Shown piece after piece: positions 71-5,420 of a stretch of DNA of 6,429 nucleotides. The stretch covers positions 1 through 6,429 of the forward strand of contig DUGE01000062.1 of the NCBI GenBank assembly GCA_013331595.1, written 5' to 3'. Below the pieces are notes generated by a model, which was given only the letters and a program-made list of their open reading frames with translations, did no database searches and was not told the origin of the DNA. The DNA comes from Microcaldota archaeon. GTDB taxonomy: Archaea; Micrarchaeota; Micrarchaeia; Norongarragalinales; UBA10210. Position numbers and translations under genes: made by a program. The stretch's first letter is position 1, and the number at the start of each line of letters is the position of its first letter.

Positions 71-2779
71 TTACTTGCGCTTGCGGGCCGGGAAAGAGCG
101 CATGGCATACAAAGCGACAAAGCCCACCAGCAAAGCAAAAAGCGGGTTGATGTCAGGCAAGGCCTTTTTTTGCTTGACGAGAATTACGGCCCTGGGTTCT
201 GAAGCGCCGTACGTGTTTCCGTCAGGATCCATCACAGTAGCAATTGTCCGGTACTCTCCCTCAGGCAATTCCATTAGGCCGAACAACCCCGGAGTGAGCA
301 CTGCCTTGAATACGCCGCGCTTTCCGGTAAACTCAACCGGAACAGTCACGGAATCCTGGTCTCCGGGCTTGAACACGGTCAAAGTTATAGAATCTGCAGC
401 ATCGCCGTCAGCAGCCAAGCCCGTGGAAGCATAATTGTAAAGCAGCGTGATTGTTGCCTTGGAAAGCGTTTCGTTCGTAACAACAACGTTTCCCTCAATG
501 CGCAGCACCGAGCTCGAAGAGTCCACAGGAGGAGTATAAGGACAGTCTACCGGAGTGCAATCCGGATTGCAAGTGTTGCATTCGTCATATTCACACGCGT
601 TGTTGCCGCAAACGCCATTGCCGCCGCAATCCTGGGGAGCACAGTCTTGAGTGCAGTAAGTGCATTCGCCAGTATCACAAACCCCATTTCCGCAAAAGCC
701 AAAACCCCGACCGTTTGTTACGGTCACGCTTGCGGCAGAACAAACGGAGAAATCGTTGCTGGAAGAAGCAAACCAACCGGTTGCAGGCTGGATTCCTGCA
801 GTGAAAGTGCCGGCATAATCATTAGGCGCCCCACCGGGCGCTAGCGAACCAAGGGATTGCGGCCGGACATCCCAATCCCACGGCGAAGCCGCGCTGCATT
901 GCGTTGAAAATCCGGTGTGAACGCAGTTTGTGGTAACCGGCGCTTCTTCAGCGAAGGTGAGATCAAGTTGCGTTTGCCCGTTGGAATCGGAGTTCCAGCA
1001 GGCGTTGCCCGAAGCAGTGGTAACCATTATGTCTTTAGTGCAGGAATTGGCTCCAAAAGAAGCTCTAATCGTATGCAGGTAAGTGACCGAGCCTGCAGTC
1101 AAAAAGGTGGATAATTCATTCCTGTCGGCAAATGTGAAGTCCCCGTTCTGCGGGAAAAATTCGCTCCACAAAACCGAACCCGAACAAGGCATAGGCACAC
1201 CATTTCCGTCAAGGCAAGTTACTGAAATTGGGGCATTCTGCTGGCCGACGGCCATGACATTCGGAGCGTTCACGAAGCAGAATGGCGTTCCACCTCCACC
1301 ACCAGCATTAGAAGCGTCGATTGAAGCCGAAGCGCACGTTTTAGTGGCGTCCCTTGAGAAAGAGAATCCTTCGCCTGCTTCGGAAGCAGAGTGGTAAGCA
1401 AAACGGTCGTCCGAAGGCTGTTCGTCAACAGAAGCTCGTGGAGGCGGGCCGTTAACCTCCCAAGCCCAAGTGCCTATTGTTCCCGAATTGCAGGGGCTCT
1501 CCGGATTATTGCCAGACTGGCAGTTCGCCTGAAGCGGCGTTATTTCACCAACATTGGTTTGAATGATGGTGTTTCCATCGGTATCTGAAACATGGCACGA
1601 ATTTCCGGAAGGGTCAACCACCCTAATCGTGCGAGCGCAAGAGAAATCCTCGCTGAAAGAAGCTTGCACTGCATGAAAATGCGTCACTTGCCCTGAAGAA
1701 ATTTGTGCCTGCATGCCTTGAGTCAAAACCAAATCGCTGTTGCGCGGGAAAGTAACATCCCAAAGCGGGGTTGAAGGGCAGGTAGTTTGAACGCCGTCGT
1801 TAAAGCAAATTACTGAAGCAGTGGAGGCATTATTCCTGTTCTGCGGAACTGAGTTGGGCGTGATCAACATGGAGCAAGACCAGCCTGAACCTCCGGGTTG
1901 AGAAGTGGAATTTATGCCAACTGCAGCGCAAACTTTTCGCGAATCCTTCGCTTCAACATAACCCGTGTTTTCCGTCAACGGGGAATAGCTTGCAAAACGG
2001 TCGTCGCCAGGAGTCTCGCTCAAAGTCGAATTTGGCACTGTGCTTGCAGCCCAAGTCCAACTGCCAATGGTGGAAGGACCGCAAGGCTTGTCGTCCTGCG
2101 CCGGAACACCGAACTTGTAGCAATTCGCTTGAAGATCGTTCTGGGAATAAATCGGCGCACGTATGGCCTGGTGTAGGGTGCTGTTTGAAACCCAGCAGGA
2201 CCAGCCGTTCACATCTTTAACTCGGAAAGTAGAACCGCAGCTTACGCCCTCGGCAAAGTTTGCGGTGACAACATGGCGGTAGGTGACAAATCCGGAAGCT
2301 ATGTCGCCAGTTAGCGGATCGTCAAAATTAGGCTCAACGGTCGCATCAGTATTGGGAGGAGTAGGTATGCTCCAAGTTGGCTCCGACGGGCAGGTTATCT
2401 CGCCTCCCCCGTTAATATCGAAACATTTTACGTTGCGGGTGGCTGTCGAACGTTGGGGAATCTCTTGCTCAACAATAAAAATCGGGTAGAGAACGCAGTA
2501 AAACGACGGCGGGTTTCCCCCACCTGCCCCTAAAGGGCAAACGCCGCCATAGCAAGGCCCTACGCCCGTATCAAAACCCGAAAAAGTACTTGAACCAATG
2601 GGAGACTCTTGGGCTACATACTGGCCGTCATAGCCGCCCTGAATGTCAGTGCCGCCAGAAGGACCGATGGCATAAATAGTGTCAAAGCCGTTGGCGTTCG
2701 AGTCAAAACCCGAAACGACAGGAGAAAAAAGCGCCAAACCGGAGAGAAAAAACAGCAGGAACAAGATCTCTTTTCTCAT
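71..2779 (-). CDS. Secreted, membrane-anchored cysteine-rich surface protein with three tandem 8-Cys repeats
   Basis: I do not recognise a named family, but the architecture is clear (902 residues from the ATG). Residues 1-24 are a signal peptide: basic MRKE start, hydrophobic ILFLLFFLSGLALF, probable cleavage after VVSG. A Gly-rich linker holds three GFD motifs and Cys76/Cys81. Three repeats of about 200 residues follow (about 94-298, 299-498, 499-694), each with eight cysteines in matching positions. Then come a 12-cysteine module (696-746), a Ser/Pro linker, a likely beta-sandwich domain (about 757-870) and a short hydrophobic anchor (about 877-893) ending in RKRK, so the protein should face outward with its C-terminus in the cytoplasm. 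Five N-X-S/T sequons (N199, N250, N290, N317, N769) are possible glycosylation sites. A GTG five codons upstream (2794) is possible, but the ATG gives the more typical signal peptide. Role in adhesion or the cell envelope is inference. Confidence 0.85.
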   Translation of the reverse strand: MRKEILFLLFFLSGLALFSPVVSGFDSNANGFDTIYAIGPSGGTDIQGGYDGQYVAQESPIGSSTFSGFDTGVGPCYGGVCPLGAGGGNPPSFYCVLYPIFIVEQEIPQRSTATRNVKCFDINGGGEITCPSEPTWSIPTPPNTDATVEPNFDDPLTGDIASGFVTYRHVVTANFAEGVSCGSTFRVKDVNGWSCWVSNSTLHQAIRAPIYSQNDLQANCYKFGVPAQDDKPCGPSTIGSWTWAASTVPNSTLSETPGDDRFASYSPLTENTGYVEAKDSRKVCAAVGINSTSQPGGSGWSCSMLITPNSVPQNRNNASTASVICFNDGVQTTCPSTPLWDVTFPRNSDLVLTQGMQAQISSGQVTHFHAVQASFSEDFSCARTIRVVDPSGNSCHVSDTDGNTIIQTNVGEITPLQANCQSGNNPESPCNSGTIGTWAWEVNGPPPRASVDEQPSDDRFAYHSASEAGEGFSFSRDATKTCASASIDASNAGGGGGTPFCFVNAPNVMAVGQQNAPISVTCLDGNGVPMPCSGSVLWSEFFPQNGDFTFADRNELSTFLTAGSVTYLHTIRASFGANSCTKDIMVTTASGNACWNSDSNGQTQLDLTFAEEAPVTTNCVHTGFSTQCSAASPWDWDVRPQSLGSLAPGGAPNDYAGTFTAGIQPATGWFASSSNDFSVCSAASVTVTNGRGFGFCGNGVCDTGECTYCTQDCAPQDCGGNGVCGNNACEYDECNTCNPDCTPVDCPYTPPVDSSSSVLRIEGNVVVTNETLSKATITLLYNYASTGLAADGDAADSITLTVFKPGDQDSVTVPVEFTGKRGVFKAVLTPGLFGLMELPEGEYRTIATVMDPDGNTYGASEPRAVILVKQKKALPDINPLFALLVGFVALYAMRSFPARKRK
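542..697 (-). repeat. Twelve-cysteine module with two tandem CGNGVC-type units
   Basis: This segment encodes residues 695-746 of the surface protein. Unit 1 is CGNGVCDTGEC followed by C..C...C....C spacing (Cys696-718). Unit 2 starts GGNGVCGNNAC and repeats the same C-x2-C-x3-C-x4-C tail (Cys724-746). Motifs of the form CGNGVC.xGE.C..C..DC recur in extracellular proteins, including those of uncultured archaea, and are probably stabilised by disulfides, perhaps with calcium. The binding role is inference. Confidence 0.65.
698..1285 (-). repeat. Repeat 3 of the surface protein's 8-Cys module, most diverged
   Basis: This segment encodes about residues 499-694. Its cysteines are at 501, 522, 532, 580, 594, 619, 628 and 680. 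AGSVTYLHTIRASF matches SGQVTHFHAVQASF of repeat 2, and SPWDWDV takes the place of the W.W motif. The DDRFA motif has decayed to NDYAG, but all eight cysteine positions are kept. Confidence 0.7.
1286..1885 (-). repeat. Repeat 2 of the surface protein's 8-Cys module
   Basis: This segment encodes about residues 299-498. Its cysteines are at 302, 325, 334, 381, 395, 420, 430 and 482, with nearly the same spacing as repeat 1. It shares TCPSTPLW, SGQVTHFHA, RVVD..GN.C, LQANC, GTIG.WAW and DDRFA-type motifs and ends in a poly-Gly linker. It is closer to repeat 1 than to repeat 3. Confidence 0.75.
1886..2500 (-). repeat. Repeat 1 of the surface protein's 8-Cys module
   Basis: This segment encodes about residues 94-298. 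Its cysteines are at 95, 119, 130, 181, 195, 220, 233 and 284. Landmarks shared with the next repeat are TCPS..P.W, SG.VT..H, a LQANC motif, STIG.W.W and DDRFA. The even and conserved cysteine count suggests four disulfides per module, which is inference. Confidence 0.75.
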
Positions 2780-2866
2780 AGGAAAACCTTTCACGATTAC
2801 AGAGCCAAGGGTATAGGGAAAACGCTCTTTTTAACTCTTATCGTGATTGCAGCCGGCGGAAGCGCG

Positions 2867-2884: not shown

Positions 2885-3559
2885 TCAAGCCAAATATTTT
2901 TTGCCCGTTGCATCCTTCGCCAAAAGCGCTATGGACTTGACGAACCAGATGGTGTATTTTTCCGGGTGGGCAGTGACCTCGCGCAACGCCTTTTTCGCGG
3001 CAAGGTTGACCAAGGCATCAACCTCCTTCTCATTGGGCTTGATTTTGCGGTTGTAATTCGCTATGCTCACAAGGCAAAACTCGTTCTCGCACGTGCCGTC
3101 CCCGTAATCCTTGTAGTAAGAAAAGCCGTCGAAATGCACCAGCGGGATTTTTTCCTCGATGCCGTATTCCTCACGCAGGCACCTCCACATTGCCTCGTTC
3201 TTCGACTCGTTCGAAAGAATGTGGCTTACGGGCGTGTCCAAGGCATTGCCTCCCACCTTGCGCTCTGGGCGCACATGCAAAACGAATTCCCCTTTTTTGT
3301 TCAAAACCAGAATTGCGAAAGCCAAATGCTTTATTCCCGGCGTTGAATGCGCATCCCACCTTTGAACCACCCGCCCGAGTGGTTTTCCCCTGTCGTCAAC
3401 GGCGAAAAGCAACTGCGTGCCCTTGTGCTTGTCCTTATACTCAAGCGAAGAGGCATAGTCGCCCACGGCCTTGCGCGCAATCTCGCTCCACTTCACTTCC
3501 GGATGCTCCTTCATTTTCCTGAACACTTCCTGCGGAACCGCGAAAGTAACGTTAGGCAT
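2885..3559 (-). CDS. Ribbon-helix-helix / IDI-1-like Nudix fusion protein lacking the isomerase catalytic Cys
   Basis: The protein has 224 residues from the ATG at 3559. Residues 1-40 resemble a ribbon-helix-helix DNA-binding domain: strand NVTFAVP, helix QEVFRKMKEH, then KWSEIARKAVGDY, as in archaeal VapB/CopG-like proteins. Residues 47-215 resemble type 1 isopentenyl-diphosphate isomerase, a Nudix-fold enzyme. Against E. coli Idi recalled from memory, the metal ligands H25, H32, H69, E87, E114 and E116 match H71, H78, H113, E131, E158 and E160. R51, K55, Y104 and W161 match R97, K101, Y148 and W205. Catalytic C67 is V111, and R83 is C127. The Nudix box is also degenerate (S for G, C for the first E of REUXEE). 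Isomerase activity is therefore doubtful; a hydrolase or ligand sensor is possible. The ATG at 3559 is chosen because GGGTGG lies 6 bases upstream and the conserved domain starts there. An in-frame ATG at 3658 would run through the promoter. Confidence 0.8.
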   Translation of the reverse strand: MPNVTFAVPQEVFRKMKEHPEVKWSEIARKAVGDYASSLEYKDKHKGTQLLFAVDDRGKPLGRVVQRWDAHSTPGIKHLAFAILVLNKKGEFVLHVRPERKVGGNALDTPVSHILSNESKNEAMWRCLREEYGIEEKIPLVHFDGFSYYKDYGDGTCENEFCLVSIANYNRKIKPNEKEVDALVNLAAKKALREVTAHPEKYTIWFVKSIALLAKDATGKKYLA

Positions 3560-3598
3560 TCCAAACCACCCTTCAAAGCAATTTAACTTAATTGCCTT

Positions 3599-3616
3599 AA
3601 ATAAGTGAAATAAGGG
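3599..3616. repeat. 9-bp tandem direct repeat in the RHH-Nudix promoter region
   Basis: The plus strand reads AAATAAGTG followed directly by AAATAAGGG, a 7-of-9 match in tandem. It lies between the candidate TATA box and the expected start of the RHH-Nudix transcript. Ribbon-helix-helix dimers often bind closely spaced short repeats, so this is a candidate autoregulatory operator. Low-complexity AT-rich DNA could produce it by chance. Confidence 0.3.
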
Positions 3617-3620
3617 AGAA

Positions 3621-3630
3621 ATATAAAAAG
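3621..3630 (-). promoter_or_regulatory. Candidate TATA box for the RHH-Nudix gene
   Basis: The minus strand reads CTTTTTATAT, close to the archaeal box A consensus, about 65 bases before the ATG. Transcription would start near 3600 and leave a leader of about 40 bases that carries the GGGTGG ribosome-binding site (3566-3571). CTTATTTAAG at 3596-3605 is an alternative, weaker TATA element. Confidence 0.4.
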
Positions 3631-3707: not shown

Positions 3708-5420
3708 ATGACCGATTCAATCGAGGCCATAGTGCGCAAGAACGCCTTGAAAAATACTTTTGATTACGGCAAGGCCGACCCGAAAAGCGTCGTGGGAAAG
3801 GTAATCGCGGAATTTCCTGATGCGAAGAAAGACATGGGGCGAACCATGCAGCTGGTTGCCCAGGCGGTTGAGGAAGCCAACAAAAAAACCAGGGAAGAAT
3901 TGGAAAAGGAAATGTCGGACTTCGTTTTCTACGAAAAGAAGGAAGTCAAGCGCGACAAGTGGGAACTGCCCGGCGTCGAGGAAGGGAAAGTAGTCACGCG
4001 CTTTCTTCCGGAACCGAACGGCTTTCCGCACATGGGCCACGCGAAAAGCGGCTTCCTGAGTTTTACGCTCGCCAAGCAGTATAACGGAAAGTTCCTCTTG
4101 CGTTTTGACGACACTAATCCCGAAAAGGAAAAGCAAGAGTACGTTGATGCAATCAAGGAAGACGCCGAGTGGCTTGGCCTTAAAGCCGATGGGCCGGAAA
4201 CCTACGCTTCGGACTTGATGGTGCAGTTTTACGATTATGCCATCCAACTTATTACCCCGGGAAACGCGTTCATCTGCTCGTGCACCCAGGAACAGATGAA
4301 GAAAAACCGCGAGGAAAAAACCGAGTGCCTTTGCAGGCGCAGGAGCGAAGGGCAAAACCTCGCGTTCTGGCAGCAGATGGTTGAAGGCGCGTTCAAGGAA
4401 GGAGAAGCCATACTCCGATTGAAAGGCGACATGGCGAGCAACAACACGGTAATGCGCGACCCCACCCTATTCAGGATTATCCTCACTCCGCACTACAGGC
4501 ACGGCGAGAAATACAAGGCTTGGCCCACCTACGATTTCGAGGTGAGCATAGCAGATTCGCTTGAAGGCGTTACGCATGCATTGCGCTCGAAGGAATACGA
4601 ATTGCGCGACGAGCTTTACTACTTCATTTTGGACAAGCTTGGGTTGCGAAAGCCTGTGGTCTACGATTTCTCGCGATTGAACATCAAGGGCAACGCCCTA
4701 AGCAAGCGCCTCATCAAGCCGTTTGTCGATGAAAAAAAAGTCTGGGGCTGGGACGACCCGCGGCTGCTTACATTGAAAGGCTTGAAGAGAAGGGGAATAC
4801 TGCCCGAAGCAATACGCACGTTCGTGCTGGGTTTTGGCTTGAGTAAAGTCGAGAGCGAGCCGAACATTGAAGCGCTGCTGAAGGAAAATGCAAAGCTGCT
4901 CGAACCTCAAGCGGAACATTACTTCTTAGTTGAAAAGCCCTTGCGGCTCATGGTGAAAAACTCGAAGGAAACTTTCGCCAAAATCCCGCTCCACCCCACC
5001 GACAAAGGCAGGGGCTTCAGGGTTTTGCACGCCGAGAAAGACTTTTTCCTCAGCAGGAAAGACTTGGACGAGCTTGACGAGGGAGACGTTTTTCGGCTGA
5101 AGGAATTGTACAACGTCAAGCTCCTCGAGAAAAATGCGAACGCCGTCATCGGCGAGTATGCCGGCAGGGACTTGATTGACGGCACTAGGAAAGTGCAGTG
5201 GGTTCCCGCCGCAAACGCAATCAAATGCGAGGTCTTGAGGGTTAGCGAGCTTTTGGAAGGCGATAAGTTCAACCCGCGGAGCTTGGTCACGGAAGTGGGC
5301 TATTGCGAACCGGAATGCGCCAAGCTTGAGGAAAGCGCAATCGTGCAGTTGGAGCGCGTTGGCTTCGCCCGCCTTGACGACAAAACAAGAATGCGGTTTA
5401 TTCTAACCAGCGAGCTTTGA
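3708..5420 (+). CDS. gltX: Glutamyl-tRNA synthetase, archaeal/eukaryotic type
   Basis: This class I synthetase attaches glutamate to tRNA(Glu) in the cytoplasm. In archaea that make Gln-tRNA by the GatDE amidotransferase it also charges tRNA(Gln). The 570 residues match the usual archaeal length. Residues 1-95 are the archaeal N-terminal domain (ALKNTFDYGKADPKSVVGKV). The Rossmann fold follows with the HIGH motif as HMGH (108-111), FDDTNP (133-138), MRDPTLFRI (249-257), PTYDF (273-277), EGVTHALRSKEY (286-297) and the KMSKR-equivalent ALSKR (330-334). Arg293 sits where glutamine enzymes carry Cys (E. coli GlnRS C229), supporting glutamate specificity. Cys190, 192, 207 and 209 form a CxC-x14-CxC candidate zinc site. 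The C-terminal beta-barrel anticodon-binding region ends with VQLERVGFARLD. The gene diverges from the RHH-Nudix gene and stops 4 bases before the next ORF, so the two may be co-transcribed. Confidence 0.95.
   Translation: MTDSIEAIVRKNALKNTFDYGKADPKSVVGKVIAEFPDAKKDMGRTMQLVAQAVEEANKKTREELEKEMSDFVFYEKKEVKRDKWELPGVEEGKVVTRFLPEPNGFPHMGHAKSGFLSFTLAKQYNGKFLLRFDDTNPEKEKQEYVDAIKEDAEWLGLKADGPETYASDLMVQFYDYAIQLITPGNAFICSCTQEQMKKNREEKTECLCRRRSEGQNLAFWQQMVEGAFKEGEAILRLKGDMASNNTVMRDPTLFRIILTPHYRHGEKYKAWPTYDFEVSIADSLEGVTHALRSKEYELRDELYYFILDKLGLRKPVVYDFSRLNIKGNALSKRLIKPFVDEKKVWGWDDPRLLTLKGLKRRGILPEAIRTFVLGFGLSKVESEPNIEALLKENAKLLEPQAEHYFLVEKPLRLMVKNSKETFAKIPLHPTDKGRGFRVLHAEKDFFLSRKDLDELDEGDVFRLKELYNVKLLEKNANAVIGEYAGRDLIDGTRKVQWVPAANAIKCEVLRVSELLEGDKFNPRSLVTEVGYCEPECAKLEESAIVQLERVGFARLDDKTRMRFILTSEL

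Follow-up and report, generated by a model that had tools for sequence, protein, structure and literature searches.

A fused gene beside gltX in a Micrarchaeota archaeon: an antitoxin-type ribbon-helix-helix head on a putative cysteine-less isopentenyl diphosphate isomerase

The stretch of DNA analysed here, 6,429 nucleotides of contig DUGE01000062.1 from a Microcaldota archaeon (hereafter the window), carries beside gltX a gene whose product joins a short head of the ribbon-helix-helix (RHH) type to a domain resembling type 1 isopentenyl diphosphate (IPP) isomerase, IDI-1, with valine at the place of the catalytic cysteine. This raises the question of whether such a protein is an enzyme, a sensor or part of a toxin-antitoxin system. 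The original prediction, which had located the gene correctly (Table 1), proposed a sensor-regulator or a re-purposed hydrolase. The explanation that we favour, with middling confidence and judging from sequence comparison, is that the gene encodes the IPP isomerase of its archaeon or an equivalent of it, and that it belongs to a Cys-less archaeal branch of IDI-1, in which a single fusion event added an antitoxin-type RHH head. This explanation draws on the fold, the retained metal and ligand residues, the family-wide loss of the cysteine, the pathway neighbours, the low co-occurrence with the type 2 isomerase IDI2, the place beside gltX and the conservation of the fused clade.

Active site of the IDI-1-like domain and its family

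The domain has the IDI-1 fold and, as aligned with IDI, extends to the last residue of the protein, 224. Residue correspondences were taken from an alignment of the fused protein with the retrieved E. coli Idi sequence. The residues H25, H32, H69, E114, E116 and E87 of E. coli Idi, which we take to be its metal ligands, are all kept as H71, H78, H113, E158, E160 and E131, and Y104, W161, R51 and K55 are kept as Y148, W205, R97 and K101. Cys67 is replaced by Val111 and R83 by Cys127. The alignment thus bears out the original prediction of an IDI-1 fold with retained metal and ligand residues and with exactly these two replacements. Compared with type 1 IPP isomerases such as E. coli Idi and human IDI1, the fused protein also has Asp for N64, Cys for V113, the additional RHH head and scores below the curated IDI-1 cut-offs (83 of 127 bits for NF002995 and 41.6 of 105.8 for TIGR02150). 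Because Cys67, R83 and these cut-offs are unmet, we do not file the protein as a canonical IDI-1; an IDI-1-like way of working may still apply.

The general Nudix fold model PF00293 was passed (26.5 bits, cut-off 21.1). As an alternative, the protein could be a Nudix hydrolase with diphosphates, isoprenoid or other, as its substrates. The canonical Nudix box reads G-x5-E-x7-R-E-U-x-E-E-x-G-U. In the fused protein it is broken by S112 in place of the Gly and C127 in place of the Glu of RE, with the remainder intact, and position 127 is occupied by C, A, T, M or G across the Cys-less family. Moreover, the five-ligand metal site of the IDI type is retained and IDI folds score clearly higher. A hydrolase is therefore improbable.

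Two protein searches, the first with 54 homologues and the second covering the best 120 of 127 at E<=1e-5, gave 122 homologues beside the window protein, most of them standalone archaeal proteins without the head. Residues were counted over 123 rows including the window protein, with P0056, a free head, omitted and P0040 truncated at position 111. The original prediction would have been contradicted by homologues mostly carrying Cys at this position, and none of 122 rows does so (Val in 66, Thr in 53, Ala in three). The surrounding active site is nearly invariant: H113, E118, E131, Y148, C157 and E158 are identical in all 122 rows with a residue, H71 and H78 in 121 of 121, E160 in 121 of 122 and W205 in 121 of 123. 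In a chosen contrast set from other genomes, all 32 Cys-type archaeal IDI-1-like proteins carry Cys at the place of Cys67; the set comprises 25 of the 26 non-Cys-less loci among 30 in one search and seven other loci. Two further loci with Ala at this place (L027 and L056) were kept out of it as a separate pair. They branch beside the Cys-less family and are possible intermediates, with long branches that make their placement unsure.

The comparison also points to a residue that may stand in for the cysteine. Asp108 is present in 121 of 121 Cys-less proteins, whereas 30 of the 32 Cys-type proteins have Asn; further invariants are Tyr152 and Cys157 (both 121 of 121) and Pro110 (119 of 121), in counts that omit the fragments P0018 and P0040 as well as P0056. 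We propose that the domain would bind IPP and dimethylallyl diphosphate (DMAPP) at the retained metal site and that IPP would be isomerised with a substitute for Cys67. Asp108 is the first candidate for this acid/base, followed by Cys157, Ser/Thr or water. A deviating copy was seen in a genome with IDI2 next door (L006, 6001-6537), where the otherwise invariant Gly103 is lost (the site reads K-I-D-N) together with Cys162; this copy was perhaps relaxed once IDI2 was present. Haloarchaeal IDI-1 may lack the cysteine as well.

Pathway context and co-occurrence with other isomerases

The neighbourhood of 18 standalone relatives (12 from named genome records and six from the G genomes) was read up to about 6 kb on each side. 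Mevalonate-pathway genes lie near the Cys-less gene in 12 of these loci. Six (L001, L011, L100, L101, L103, L104) contain mevalonate kinase, phosphomevalonate kinase and diphosphomevalonate decarboxylase, and five (L002, L004, L005, L008, L010) contain isopentenyl phosphate kinase, both aconitase X parts, UbiD and UbiX, while L009 has isopentenyl phosphate kinase and a weak decarboxylase match. Since the Cys-less genes thus stand beside two routes with IPP as the common product, a function at the IPP step is suggested. A D-aminoacyl-tRNA deacylase gene was found directly upstream of the Cys-less gene in L002, L003, L005, L006, L009 and L010, identified by a Pfam match in L003 and by tblastn in the other five. 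The records of L005 and L006 are titled Chloroflexi/Chloroflexota bacteria and carry the Cys-less archaeal family; the genomes themselves cluster with the phylum to which a Diapherotrites record belongs, and the titles are probably mislabelled.

The place of the fused gene was compared with the 20 best-scoring gltX loci among the 173 genomes, of 296, that gave a match at E<=1e-140, again read up to about 6 kb on each side. The gltX protein of the window is closest to that of G292, a genome of the G002 phylum (66% identical). A mevalonate-gltX cluster is known in archaea. Around gltX, mevalonate-pathway genes occur in 15 of the 20 loci, with mevalonate kinase within 100 base pairs (bp) in six of them (L111, L112, L114-L117). 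The fused gene occupies the position beside gltX where relatives keep these genes. IDI2, also named Fni and dependent on flavin mononucleotide, shares this place in nine of the 20 loci (within about 100 bp in L123 and L126) and is present anywhere in the genome in 17 of 20, being absent from G292, G284 and G293. It has an unrelated fold, and Pfam and NCBIfam scans of the fused protein revealed no similarity to it.

IDI2 is also rare in genomes with the Cys-less protein. Among the 87 genomes of the G009 phylum, the Cys-less protein was found in 14 (one a fragment), IDI2 in 45 (43 above the cut-off) and Cys-type IDI-1 was counted in seven; none of the three isomerase types was counted in 22. Only one of the 14 Cys-less holders has IDI2, compared with 44 of the 73 other genomes (Fisher p 2.5e-4, kinship uncorrected), and 12 of the 14 carry neither IDI2 nor Cys-type IDI-1. 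In the G002 phylum (301 genomes) there are four Cys-less holders, and IDI2 scores above the cut-off in none of them. Single absences are weak because the genomes are drafts.

These data bear on the sensor that the original prediction had proposed, here taken as a catalytically silent domain that would detect IPP, DMAPP or some other diphosphate on behalf of a DNA-binding head. The equivalents of Cys67 and R83 are missing, the attached head is of a DNA-binding type, and isoprenoid diphosphates are known to release the repressor CrtR from DNA (PMC5401885). However, headless standalone relatives also lack the cysteine, lie in mevalonate clusters and mostly occur without another IPP isomerase. While the DNA-binding type of the head stands, the loss of the cysteine speaks less for a sensor or a re-purposed hydrolase than had been proposed, since it is shared by a mostly standalone family near mevalonate genes, rarely with IDI2 and with the active-site frame kept. 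A silent sensor is thus unlikely, and an enzyme with a regulatory head fits better.

Several observations weigh against an isomerase nonetheless. Beside the replacement of Cys67 and R83 and the missed curated cut-offs, the distribution test disregards kinship and gaps in the genomes. G006 is the single genome with both the Cys-less protein and IDI2. G010, which holds the Cys-less protein, also has a Cys-type IDI-1, the latter on a 4-kb contig, so that a strictly exclusive distribution was rejected. No mevalonate gene was found in five of the 18 standalone loci (L003, on a 3-kb contig, L007, L012, L102 and L105), and L006 shows IDI2 alone. At gltX, mevalonate-pathway genes are missing from L109, L113, L119, L124 and L127, the first of which, the 5-kb contig of G292, has a gene for a PIN toxin on the upstream side of gltX; this nearest genome has neither IDI2 nor a member of the Cys-less family. 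No mevalonate gene lies within the window, and the fused gene is divergent from gltX. Finally, a second, distantly related IDI/YfcD-like Nudix gene, often convergent or between mevalonate genes, is present in ten of the 18 standalone loci and could be the true isomerase instead. It keeps the three His in L003, L005, L009 and L010, with Thr (L003) or Ala (the other three) where the Cys would be. The second gene of L004, L008, L011, L100, L101 and L104 is of another type; two of these were aligned, and the one in L008 has no His equivalents, while the one in L004, which is interrupted by the contig end, lacks the only His visible. This second gene occurs in fewer loci than the Cys-less protein and retains less of the active site.

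The RHH head and the fused clade

Residues 1-47 of the fused protein match a family of short proteins in 54 of the 87 genomes of the G009 phylum. We read 22 loci of this family, and four scanned neighbours or fusions were PIN, ParE and PemK toxins and one Fic fusion. Over 47 residues the head shares 38-47% identity with six antitoxin-like open reading frames (ORFs), whose invariant residues it keeps. In NCBIfam, eight of ten aligned members of the head family match the VapB-like model NF050799 and four of ten RelB-like models; in Pfam, four of ten match DUF6290 (best E 1.4e-7). The window head itself reaches E 0.0031 with NF050799 at 18 bits, short of the cut-off of 60. A Pfam scan of the head gave no RHH family, no credible RHH relatives were found among PDB sequences, and PF26688 is listed in the homologue table as a domain of P0002-P0006, P0040 and P0056. 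It is the kinship to antitoxin-like ORFs that supports the RHH-type head of the original prediction and its antitoxin character.

For the RHH fold proposed at residues 1-40, AlphaFold2 (AF2) monomer models show two helices (10-18 and 24-46) and no RHH strand, a further point on the negative side, and Foldseek found no match for the 47-residue head model, which is very small. As the RHH strand forms with the dimer partner, a monomer without it neither supports nor refutes the fold.

In a tree with 38 standalone rows, the full-length fused proteins, six in all, group as a single clade (support of 98 in the Shimodaira-Hasegawa-like approximate likelihood ratio test, a quick method), and the fusion of the head to the Cys-less domain most likely happened once. 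Across 115 standalone rows, 31 positions are conserved at >=95%, and each of the six fused proteins retains every one of them. Among five of the fused proteins the mean identity is 87% for the heads and 76% for the enzymes; P0002, a 97% copy whose head is identical to that of the window, was omitted. Judged by these comparisons, decay of either part would not produce the conservation seen in both. The possibility that translation from within the gene (V32, GTG in the window) yields an unfused protein was rejected, as the heads of P0003-P0006 read I, I, I and L there.

This conservation also bears on an IPP isomerase whose head has lost DNA binding and serves dimerisation or stabilisation alone. 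Such a protein would agree with the intact enzyme frame and with the upstream region, where a candidate operator, an imperfect inverted repeat at 3572-3601, was rejected: 27 of 150 dinucleotide shuffles scored at least as high as the best palindrome found in the intergenic region, which also counts against a regulatory fusion. On the other side, the head is more conserved than the enzyme and retains the residues that do not vary among free antitoxin-like ORFs. We consider this loss of DNA binding rather unlikely, though less so than a silent sensor.

It is also conceivable that the head is still an antitoxin, so that the fusion would neutralise a toxin whose gene lies elsewhere. The head family adjoins PIN, ParE and PemK genes and is fused to Fic elsewhere, and the PIN gene in G292 lies upstream of gltX. 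Yet no toxin family was found among the four scanned proteins of the window, and the segment that follows the RHH helices in free antitoxins (20-30 residues) is replaced by the enzyme, so that we regard this possibility as very improbable. In six archaeal loci of the G009 phylum (L089-L094) the same kind of RHH head is fused to an apparent Fic domain (HPFEDGNKR or similar); L090, which was scanned, matches Pfam Fic, another capture of an antitoxin head by an enzyme.

Features of the window are listed in Table 1. The fused gene and gltX are separated by 148 bp, and gltX is followed by a gene for a protein with tetratricopeptide repeats (TPR) near its C-terminus, the first 230 residues of which match no significant family. 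The 907-residue protein encoded downstream of the fused gene has no Pfam or NCBIfam match at E<=1. By eye it has an N-terminal hydrophobic stretch, repeated segments, a Cys-rich stretch and a C-terminal hydrophobic stretch, and it is likely a secreted or surface protein. No relatives of the fused protein were confirmed on viral contigs, and a comparison with PHROGs gave nothing better than E 0.06; in plasmid records there were 15 matches, all below 60% identity and all in records named for bacteria.

Table 1. Positions of the fused gene, its parts and its neighbours in the window
Feature	Position	Strand	Basis or remark
Fused gene: RHH-type head and Cys-less IDI-1-like domain	2885..3559	-	224 aa, begins with ATG, coordinates include the stop codon
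Antitoxin-type RHH head, residues 1-46	3422..3559	-	NF050799 E 0.0031; kinship to toxin-adjacent antitoxin-like ORFs; AF2 helices without a strand
IDI-1-fold (Nudix superfamily) domain, residues 49-224	2888..3415	-	
His71 (E. coli H25), metal ligand	3347..3349	-	
His78 (E. coli H32), metal ligand	3326..3328	-	
Asp108 (E. coli N64), invariant in Cys-less family	3236..3238	-	
Val111 codon GTA, place of catalytic Cys67 of E. coli Idi	3227..3229	-	Alignment
His113 (E. coli H69), metal ligand	3221..3223	-	
Degenerate Nudix-box segment, residues 112-134, RE as Arg126-Cys127	3158..3226	-	Read from sequence
Cys157-Glu158-Asn159-Glu160: family-specific Cys, E114/E116 equivalents	3080..3091	-	
Possible ribosome-binding GGGTGG upstream of ATG	3567..3572	-	Read by eye
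TATA-like stretch	3620-3629		Read by eye
gltX, archaeal glutamate--tRNA ligase	3708..5420	+	TIGR00463 466.9 bits, cut-off 401.75
TPR protein, 302 aa	5425-6333	+	TPR_2 E 4.3e-9
907-aa protein	71-2794	-	

Relation to known systems and meaning

The E. coli Nudix protein 2fkb (YfcD) falls on a separate tree branch (nud2) and lacks the signatures D-x-P-[VT]-[ST]-H and C-E-N-E of the Cys-less family. Archaeal VapB/RelB RHH antitoxins resemble the head in sequence; the fused protein differs from them by its enzyme and by the absence of a toxin gene in the window. In NrtR a winged helix lies C-terminal to the Nudix domain, whereas the extra domain of the fused protein is N-terminal and of the RHH type and its enzyme domain is IDI-like. 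PutA, an RHH head with proline enzymes and an autogenous repressor (PMC5293562), also combines such a head and a metabolic enzyme in one chain. In the fused protein the head is recognised by sequence kinship, and the enzyme frame lacks Cys67 although its 31 conserved positions are intact. Enzyme, pathway and domain of life are different in the fused protein, and its regulation is a guess by analogy.

By this analogy, a PutA-like trigger enzyme is plausible. The head would form an RHH dimer and bind DNA, and the bound head might tune its own or other isoprenoid genes by the substrate level, as PutA does for proline. In its full form, a Cys-independent isomerase whose captured head represses its own gene as well as mevalonate and lipid genes until IPP or DMAPP fills the active site, the proposal is possible but doubtful.

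The original prediction that the fusion may be undescribed agrees with the literature searched, mostly open papers by title or start of abstract among the matches listed, in which no description of a Cys-less IDI-1 or of an RHH-IDI-1 fusion was found. Neither is mentioned in the parts seen of PMC11052028, PMC12892359, PMC8975820 and PMC3533463, the last of which reports that Haloarchaea and Thaumarchaeota have IDI1 genes.

The fusion would couple a DNA-binding module of toxin-antitoxin systems to an enzyme of lipid precursors, a PutA-like layout for which we found no description in the isoprenoid pathway within this literature. DPANN genomes serve to judge which archaea make their own lipids, and an isomerase that scores below the curated cut-offs can count as a gap there. 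If active without Cys67, the Cys-less family tests which residues the chemistry of IDI-1 truly requires. Should the fused protein be a trigger enzyme of the kind proposed, the standalone family would give DPANN and Promethearchaeota a third practical way to isomerise IPP, in addition to IDI2 and Cys-type IDI-1.
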